From Balneola sp. (lineage in GTDB: Bacteria > Bacteroidota > Rhodothermia > Balneolales > Balneolaceae): 64,000 nucleotides of DNA. The position numbers and the translations under genes are program-made. Positions 16,771 through 22,358 of this stretch are shown in pieces. Location: assembly GCA_002694685.1 (NCBI GenBank), contig NZMW01000016.1, positions 62,001 to 126,000 of the forward strand. The letters are read 5' to 3'. The notes under the pieces were generated by a model, which saw only the letters and a program-made list of their open reading frames with translations, was not told the origin of the DNA and searched no databases. How positions within the stretch are numbered: the stretch's first letter is position 1; each line of letters begins with the position of its first letter.

Positions 16771-17007
16771 AATAGATCTCCTTTTTTCTCTTTTCTACTG
16801 AGATAATGACCAAAATCGTGCCCACTCAAGAATATTGACAGAATTACAGTATTTAAAAATTTTGAACAAACGCCTGATCTTGTGCTTGAGATCTTGCTTA
16901 TTTAACTACCATATGAATAAGATATTTAGAGATCAATTCAGTAATGAATCTTGTGTACTGAGGTCTTTTTTATAGATAAGCTTACCAAGACCACGAATTT
17001 ATAAGGC

Positions 17008-17064
17008 ATAAAAAAACCCCGAACTGTATCAGAGTTCAGGGTTTGGGTTTTTCGGGGTACAAAA
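17008..17064 (-). terminator. Hairpin element A, terminator-like
   Basis: On the minus strand CCCCGAA is followed by AACTC-type arms and then TTCGGGG and seven T. The inner stem GAACT (17021-17025) pairs with AGTTC (17033-17037) around loop GTATCAG. The outer CCCC (17017-17020) pairs with GGGG (17054-17057). It matches element B along its length except for the inner stem. Confidence 0.65.
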
Positions 17065-17169
17065 TCTTAAAAAAAACTTACACGCTAAAGATACAAAATG
17101 TTTAAAATAATATGCTTGTAATTTTTAGTAAATCGTTAAGCCTAAAAATATTAGCACTAATCCACCTGT

Positions 17170-17224
17170 CATAAAAACCCCGGTCCGTATCAGGGACCAA
17201 GGTTTGGGTTTTCGGGGTACAAAT
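17170..17224 (-). terminator. Hairpin element B, terminator of degP
   Basis: Same architecture as element A 160 bases away. The inner stem is GGTCC (17182-17186) with GGACC (17194-17198) around the same loop GTATCAG, and the outer CCCC/GGGG pair is kept. A T-run follows on the minus strand. It lies 20 bases beyond the degP stop. The inner-stem bases differ from A but still pair, which is covariation. Confidence 0.7.
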
Positions 17225-17242
17225 TCAAAGTCTTATTATAGG

Positions 17243-18803: not shown

Positions 18804-18842
18804 TAAAAAAGAAACCGAAGCCCCGATCATGGGACTTCGGTT
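18804..18842 (-). terminator. Rho-independent terminator of hsp20
   Basis: AACCGAAG (18813-18820) pairs with CTTCGGTT (18835-18842); inner CCC and GGG extend the stem across a bulge. On the minus strand the stem is followed by TTCTTTTTTAT. It lies about 25 bases beyond the hsp20 stop and upstream of the degP promoter region. Confidence 0.8.
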
Positions 18843-19294: not shown

Positions 19295-19353
19295 AATTAA
19301 CCTCGTAATTGAGTTTTTTGGTTCATTTATTCACTCATAATATTGCAAGGCAC

Positions 19354-19370
19354 ATGCCAACAAAAGAGAA
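19354..19370 (-). promoter_or_regulatory. Sigma-54 (RpoN) promoter for hsp20
   Basis: On the minus strand: TTGGCATG, four bases, TTGCA. The consensus is TTGGCACG, four bases, TTGCW. The GG and GC dinucleotides are ten bases apart, as required, and only one conserved position differs. Transcription would begin near 19343, giving a leader of about 50 bases. An enhancer-binding activator would be needed; none is coded nearby. Confidence 0.7.
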
Positions 19371-19503
19371 GATCTGGTATGCTGACAGACGGACAAACTA
19401 AACCTGTTGATTTTTCAGTTTGCTAAATCACGTTAGAAAAGTTGACAGAGTGAAAAGGAAAAGTCTGACAGACTAAAACCAAAAATGGCAGAAATGAGAT
19501 GTT

Positions 19504-20945: not shown

Positions 20946-21062
20946 AGGTAAATTTATTGAGTGAGCGGATAAACTATCGGTTTTTTGGCGTTAATGCTTA
21001 AAATTCTTGCACATTGTTTTGCTCAATCGAATATATTAAGGTCGAATTCTAAAAAACATACC

Positions 21063-22358
21063 ATGTTAGAAACAAAACCACGCATATTGGTGGTAGATGA
21101 CCATCCGGCTCTTGTAACGTTGACAAGACACAAGCTAATTCAAAAAGGGTACGAAGTTTTAACAGCACAAAATGGGGAAGACGCGCTAGAACTGACGCGC
21201 ACGGAATATCCGGATCTCATTTTAAGTGATGTTGATATGCTTGTCATGGATGGCTTTGAACTCTGTGAAAGGGTTAAGCATGATTCCAGGCTTAATAAGA
21301 TTCCAATCATCTTAGTTACCTCGATGGTAACTACTGAGTATATCATGAAAGGTATCGAGGCCGGCGCCGACAATTATCTAACTAAACCTTATGATGATGA
21401 AACTCTGCACAGCAAAATTGAAGAGCTTCTTTTAAATCCCCCCATTCCAATTACTGACGAAGATACGGTCGGTGTTGAAATAGAAGGCAAAACCTATCAA
21501 ATACATGCTAATTATTCACATCTGGTCAATCTTCTGATTTCTACCTACAAAAATACACTTGGACAGAATAATCAGCTTAGCAAGATGCAAAGTGGGTTAA
21601 ACGCGGCCAACAAAGAGCTTGAGCTTACCAAGAAAGAGCATGAAGAACTCATTCATAACATCTTCCCACAAAAAGTAGCCGAGAACTTATTGGCCTATGG
21701 GACAGTCACTCCTGAGCGATATGAAGATGCCACCATTATGTTTACCGATTTTGAAGGATTTACCAAGGTGGTACCAACTTTATCTCCCGAAAAACTTATT
21801 GAAAGCCTCTCCTTTTATTTTGACCGGTTTGACGACTACACCGGCCAGCATAATTTGATCAAAATTAAAACCATTGGCGATAGCTACATGGCTGCCGGAG
21901 GAATTCCTGATCGCAATCACTCCCATCCAATCGATGCTATTTTAGCAGCGCTGAAGATTGTTGATTTCGTCAAAACATTTGGTGAGAAAAATCAGTCCGA
22001 TACTCCTTACCTGCCTATTCGCATTGGTATCCATACCGGAAAAACTGTAGTTGGAGTAATTGGGAAATCACGTTTTGCTTATGATTTGTGGGGCGAGACC
22101 GTAAACCTCGCAGCGCGACTGGAAGAACATTCAGGGGAAAACGCCATTAACATCTCGCAGATAACTTATGAGCGTGTTAAAGATTTCTTTGTGTGTGAGT
22201 CGAGGGGTAATGTTGAAACCAAATACACGGGAAAAATCCCTATGTATTATGTTACACGCATTAAAGAAGATCTTTCTGAGGATGACGAAGGACTATTCCC
22301 AAATCGCTTATTCATCCGTGAATATAATAGCCTGATAAGAAAGCAAGCAGAGAACTAG
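21063..22358 (+). CDS. Response regulator-adenylate cyclase fusion
   Basis: A soluble 431-residue protein: receiver domain (1-125; phosphoacceptor D56 in LSDVDM, Lys in YLTKPYDDE), a helical linker with coiled-coil character (about 165-210), and a class III nucleotide cyclase domain (about 225-400). In the cyclase, the metal Asp residues are in FTDFEGFT and TIGDSYMAAGG. The base-selecting pair looks like Lys in IKIKTIGD and Asp in FAYDLWGE, favouring ATP and hence cAMP. The transition-state Asn/Arg are in GETVNLAARLE. A longer frame from 20985 exists, but the ATG at 21063 starts right at the receiver. No histidine kinase is adjacent. Confidence 0.9.
   Translation: MLETKPRILVVDDHPALVTLTRHKLIQKGYEVLTAQNGEDALELTRTEYPDLILSDVDMLVMDGFELCERVKHDSRLNKIPIILVTSMVTTEYIMKGIEAGADNYLTKPYDDETLHSKIEELLLNPPIPITDEDTVGVEIEGKTYQIHANYSHLVNLLISTYKNTLGQNNQLSKMQSGLNAANKELELTKKEHEELIHNIFPQKVAENLLAYGTVTPERYEDATIMFTDFEGFTKVVPTLSPEKLIESLSFYFDRFDDYTGQHNLIKIKTIGDSYMAAGGIPDRNHSHPIDAILAALKIVDFVKTFGEKNQSDTPYLPIRIGIHTGKTVVGVIGKSRFAYDLWGETVNLAARLEEHSGENAINISQITYERVKDFFVCESRGNVETKYTGKIPMYYVTRIKEDLSEDDEGLFPNRLFIREYNSLIRKQAEN

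Follow-up and report, generated by a model that had tools for sequence, protein, structure and literature searches.

A conserved, probable sigma-54 promoter element before hsp20 and other chaperone operons of Balneolaceae

What governs transcription of a small heat-shock gene that is preceded by a sequence of sigma-54 type? The window analysed here, a 64-kb stretch of Balneolaceae DNA, carries such a gene, hsp20 (Table 1), for which an initial annotation had proposed a sigma-54 promoter on the minus strand, with GG and GC exactly ten bases apart and one departure from consensus. That element is present as TTGGCATGTGCCTTGCA, with GG at -24 and GC at -12 in exact spacing and a sole departure, C to T, from TTGGCACG-N4-TTGCA. 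It had been placed at 19354-19370, about 10 bases too high, and lies at 19344-19360; the proposed distance of about 60 bases to the hsp20 ATG is fair, the 3' and 5' ends of the motif being 49 and 66 nt from that codon. The transcription start usually falls at a set spacing from the -12 element, and from this spacing hsp20 transcription would be expected to begin near 19332-19335.

Because a terminator follows it, hsp20 is probably transcribed alone; degQ-like and clpB genes lie downstream on the same strand. The gap between these two genes holds two similar minus-strand copies (17010-17060 and 17180-17230), both beginning GTACCCCGAAAA.CCCAAACC and finishing GGGGTTTTT, which look like duplicated terminators. 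A response regulator in which a receiver is fused to an adenylate/guanylate cyclase domain is encoded on the plus strand at 20985-22358. An Rfam search of the 64-kb window returned no match.

Table 1. Features of the hsp20 locus (window coordinates) and sigma-54 activators of the source genome
Feature	Place	Strand	Basis
Predicted sigma-54 (-24/-12) promoter, TTGGCATG-TGCC-TTGCA	19344..19360	-	sequence and orthologue conservation
hsp20, small heat-shock protein, 142 aa	18866..19294	-	ORF; Pfam HSP20 PF00011, E 5.3e-26
Intrinsic terminator 3' of hsp20	18813..18842	-	12-pair stem, 7 G-C pairs, T tract
Proximal enhancer-like site TTGTCCGTCTGTCAG, TGTCA at -27 from -24 box	19382..19396	-	TGWCA conservation
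CTGAAAAATCAACAG, possible further dyad (YTG-N9-CAR) and conserved A-tract	19404..19418	-	alignment
Distal enhancer-like site CTGTCAACTTTTCTA, TGTCA at -87 from -24 box	19434..19448	-	TGWCA conservation
GTCTGTCAGAC, further TGTCA site at -110, place little conserved	19463..19473	-	sequence
Activator, folD-linked, with receiver (NtrX/AtoC-like)	source genome		
Activator with receiver and GAFTDA for GAFTGA	source genome, C17:90 kb		
Activator before lptE, receiver-less	source genome		
Activator taken as flagellar from neighbourhood	source genome, C1:840 kb		

Conservation of the element among hsp20 orthologues

Short motifs of this kind arise readily, and the element might be a chance sigma-54-like string before a gene that is really read from a housekeeping promoter. 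Motif frequency fits this reading: TTGGCAYN5TTGCW with at most one mismatch occurs twice in the window against 1.74 expected, TGGCACGN4TTGCW with at most two mismatches 12 times against 6.95, and TTGGCAYN5TTGCW with at most one mismatch is matched 88 times in the source genome (3.95 Mb, 17 contigs), as compared with 50 times for the reversed pattern. Exact copies of TTGGCAYN5TTGCW in the source genome number four, two of them before hsp20 genes and two within other ORFs. With frequencies so near chance, we rejected rarity of the motif as evidence for a promoter.

It is position and conservation that make the motif significant despite its chance-level frequency. Among 92 Balneolaceae genomes (one of them, G021, Gracilimonas amylolytica), 89 had an hsp20 match and all 89 upstream regions were analysed, with the qualification that kinship among these genomes inflates every count. 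TTGGCAY-N5-TTGCW with at most one mismatch stands 39-69 bases before the ATG in 76 of the 89 orthologues, so that the scan of orthologues by which the initial annotation proposed to challenge its own claim turns out in that claim's favour. Mismatches are distributed as 53 exact sites, 23 with one, 5 with two and 8 with three. By contrast, the opposite strand gave no match with at most one mismatch in 90 regions (the 89 and one paralogue), and shuffled hsp20 upstreams gave 3 in 1800. The best-matching site retains GG and the -12 G in every one of the 89 orthologues; among the 81 sequences that deviate at two positions or fewer, T-G-G at -24 and T-T-G at -12 are invariant and the spacer is variable, an outcome that this selection of sequences itself favours. 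Invariant -24 and -12 bases around a variable spacer form the pattern that would be expected of RpoN contacts. Adding that the same element recurs before grpE, groES and a second hsp20, and that a simple sigma-70 scan (one that does not cover the housekeeping type of Bacteroidota) found no promoter before hsp20, we regard a chance origin as very improbable.

Two or three mismatches separate the remaining 13 orthologues from the motif: those of the seven g19 genomes, which read RTGGCATAYNWTTTGTG always 51-52 bases before the ATG, and of G028, G045, G074, G079, G089 and G090. Beyond Balneolaceae the signal fades but remains: of the roughly 150 genomes of the wider order, class and phylum that had an Hsp20 match, 44 supplied 45 upstreams, and 16 of these 45 carry the motif with at most two mismatches, compared with 2 when the reverse strand is scanned.

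Conservation also bears on a second reading, in which the sequence is the operator of some other regulator, recognized for instance through the near-palindrome GGCATGTGCC, rather than a promoter. The -24 box and spacer of the window do form GGCA-TG-TGCC. The spacer half of this palindrome is unconserved, however, whereas GG and TTG are kept at exact spacing, and the -12 side would be superfluous for such an operator; we consider this reading, too, highly unlikely.

Enhancer-like sites and other chaperone operons

Further upstream, the hsp20 orthologues share TGWCA at two fixed distances from the -24 box: of the 89, 77 have it within -30..-21, 85 within -92..-81 and 75 at both places, as compared with 0 to 17 for other 10-nt windows. 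This two-site layout appears enhancer-like, and the sites are putative sites for an activator. The longer unit resembles YTG-N9-CAR or YTGWC-N5-GWCAR, the latter occurring with at most two mismatches 257 times, versus 41 in shuffles, in 77 sequences (a count made without G079, G087, G089 and G090, whereas the TGWCA window counts use all 89). Within the 81 anchored sequences, a conserved A-tract places A at -54 in 70 and at -53 in 73, and TGWCA at -109 is found in only 4; some hsp20 upstreams carry further sites near -110 and -130.

These observations extend in part to other genes. At least four chaperone operons, that of hsp20 included, appear to have such a predicted promoter, a wider set than the single gene of the initial claim. 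Among the source-genome matches examined (30 of 52 and 30 of 88, in overlapping sets, with gene identities from NCBIfam and gene maps), intergenic matches close before an ORF include those of hsp20, of hsp20-2 followed by dnaK, of grpE-dnaJ and of groES-groEL. The motif before hsp20-2 is exact and lies 35 bases from the gene; those of grpE-dnaJ and groES-groEL lie 54 and 78 bases from theirs. In the source genome only, dnaK follows hsp20-2 by 186 nt on the same strand, and the two are probably co-transcribed, in which case the hsp20-2 promoter would serve dnaK. Of the remaining intergenic matches, two lie at C1:836 kb, close to the activator taken as flagellar, and three precede other genes.

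Across the family, a promoter-like match with at most one mismatch precedes groES in 38 of 39 upstreams analysed, in a form like TTGGTAC-N5-TTGCW, and grpE in 33 of 41. These were taken from 80 groES and 86 grpE matches, as the best 30 of each together with 9 and 11 picked mostly from genomes without an activator type or rpoN. Second Hsp20 genes show the element with at most one mismatch in 15 of 21 cases (21 of 23 matches analysed). Often these second genes (L218-L237, L136) read TTGGCAY-N5-TTTGT, with T for the usual C at -12, at 61-115 bases before the ATG. The clpB upstream of the window (16771-17242) contains no match with at most two mismatches, and clpB was rejected there as a sigma-54 target. 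As for the upstream sites, TGWCA stands at the same -27 position before grpE in 18 of 30 sequences and, by eye, a GTCA site lies at a like distance before hsp20-2/dnaK; before groES the -27 site is found in none of 30, so the idea that groES shares it with hsp20 was rejected.

Sigma factor and candidate activators

The source genome encodes one copy of rpoN (E 5e-56) and four NtrC/PspF-type activators with strong PF00158 matches, which, with orthologue conservation, lend support to the initial reading of the element as a sigma-54 promoter of hsp20. Elsewhere in the family, rpoN was found in 84 of 92 genomes; incomplete assemblies may explain the other 8, which include G082 and G085, both with promoter-like sites retained. 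Three of the source-genome activators have a GAFTGA or GSFTGA loop and one has GAFTDA; this last, an NtrC-like response regulator (G000:C17:90296-90796, L033), may no longer work on sigma-54. A row of genes at L356 5072-9260 (source genome C1) runs ptsN-like, dacB-like, sigma-54 activator, folD, the names being given by eye.

One might expect chaperones to be governed instead by HrcA and CIRCE or by a factor of sigma-32 type, leaving the sigma-54 site a secondary role, as is reported for E. coli ibpB; these are the textbook systems. HrcA, however, is missing from all 92 family genomes in a search that was positive in 7 of 14 control genomes, and we judge this arrangement improbable.

We consider it very probable that the hsp20 site is a working sigma-54 promoter, driven from enhancer sites by an AAA+ activator and sharing this control with other chaperone operons. 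RpoN-polymerase would bind the -24/-12 element of hsp20 and wait there until the activator, seated on TGWCA-centred dyads at about -27 and about -87 from the -24 box, used ATP to open the promoter. The same polymerase would also serve hsp20-2/dnaK, grpE-dnaJ and groES-groEL, and RpoN would thus run the core cytosolic chaperone genes of these HrcA-less bacteria. Use of the promoter in the cell, and its response to heat or unfolded protein, we infer from sequence.

Which activator would act is a separate matter. A true sigma-54 promoter might answer to the folD-linked, receiver-bearing protein and so serve an envelope or nitrogen response rather than heat shock. In the family this activator is widespread; in the source genome it comes after ptsN-like and dacB-like genes, and it is the only type found in G044 and G052 (fragmented assemblies of 260 and 350 contigs). 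At first we favoured it, since the genomes that lack it (G079, G080, G081, G082, G085, G089 and G090) have off-consensus hsp20 promoters. Those same seven nevertheless keep their grpE promoters (7/7, at most two mismatches) and their groES promoters (6/6 found), and in the four that belong to g19 both TGWCA sites upstream of hsp20 are retained; because these features are intact without it, the folD-linked activator was set back, and it now seems a possible but unlikely regulator.

The receiver-less protein encoded before lptE has a broader claim. In the 17 cases analysed where a genome has one or two activators, lptE-linked proteins occur in 15, folD-linked ones in 10 and a flagellar one in 1, and the lptE-linked type is the only activator found in G079, G080, G081, G085, G089 and G090. 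All six of these genomes keep grpE promoters (at most two mismatches), and the five in which groES was found all keep groES promoters (at most one mismatch), an argument limited by incomplete assemblies and by the fact that the six represent three genera only. Since promoters persist where it is the only one found, the lptE-linked protein is the best candidate, and we give about an even chance to its being the activator. Like PspF-type activators it lacks a receiver, enters the AAA+ domain almost immediately and ends in a Fis-type helix-turn-helix, which is well conserved across 16 sequences (GNRRKAS.LG.SERTLYRK); unlike PspF, it has a long and variable linker, and it scores 293 bits against an NCBIfam PspF cut-off of 444. 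More tentatively, and with rather less than even confidence, we propose that this protein could stand in for sigma-32 and HrcA as the master activator of the heat-shock response in Balneolaceae, and perhaps across much of Bacteroidota. It would act through the two enhancer sites at fixed distances, the nearer only about 25 bases upstream of the -24 box, and would be set by free chaperone rather than by phosphorylation.

Relation to known systems

The E. coli small heat-shock gene ibpB reportedly has both sigma-32 and sigma-54 promoters. There sigma-54 adds to sigma-32, whereas in Balneolaceae it is apparently common to several chaperone operons. Open-licence literature yielded nothing on sigma54 in Balneolaceae, and only phage work combining at least three of RpoN, Hsp20, Bacteroidota and Rhodothermus, each weak evidence of absence. 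As far as our sources, some of them partial, extend, neither the enhancer-like sites at fixed distances nor an lptE-linked activator in this role was found described.

The initial annotation held that RpoN control of Hsp20 is not a standard expectation, which is only partly right given the precedents, one mapped (PMC9723704) and one predicted and including an IbpA/Hsp20 COG (PMC12316311), in the portions of these papers used here. The predicted case, aRpoNDB (2025), reports GroEL, GroES, GrpE, DnaJ, DnaK and IbpA/Hsp20 (COG0071) as enriched behind predicted Bacteroidota sigma-54 promoters (PMC12316311). Its main text contains no word starting with Rhodotherm or Balneol, and the portion used names neither an activator nor an enhancer site for this group (PMC12316311).

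The mapped case, Flavobacterium psychrophilum (2021), has transcription starts with sigma-54 (SM4) -24/-12 elements at groES-groEL, dnaK, grpE-dnaJ, clpB, htpG and lon, and an activator gene adjoining lptE, four locus tags from groES (PMC9723704). The part of the promoter table used here lists no hsp20, and the passages used describe no enhancer sites (PMC9723704). Balneolaceae resemble this flavobacterium in their predicted promoters at groES-groEL and grpE-dnaJ and, in the source genome only, in one that would serve dnaK; they differ in belonging to another class of the phylum and, in the window, in a clpB without such a promoter (PMC9723704). Chaperone induction without HrcA has been thinly studied in Bacteroidota and their kin, and specific sites and a specific candidate activator can now be put to the test. 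We take the Balneolaceae case to be a probable sigma-54 chaperone regulon of a kind already known, extended to a further class and to genes for small heat-shock proteins: the wiring mapped in one flavobacterium would reach a distant class and take in small heat-shock proteins.
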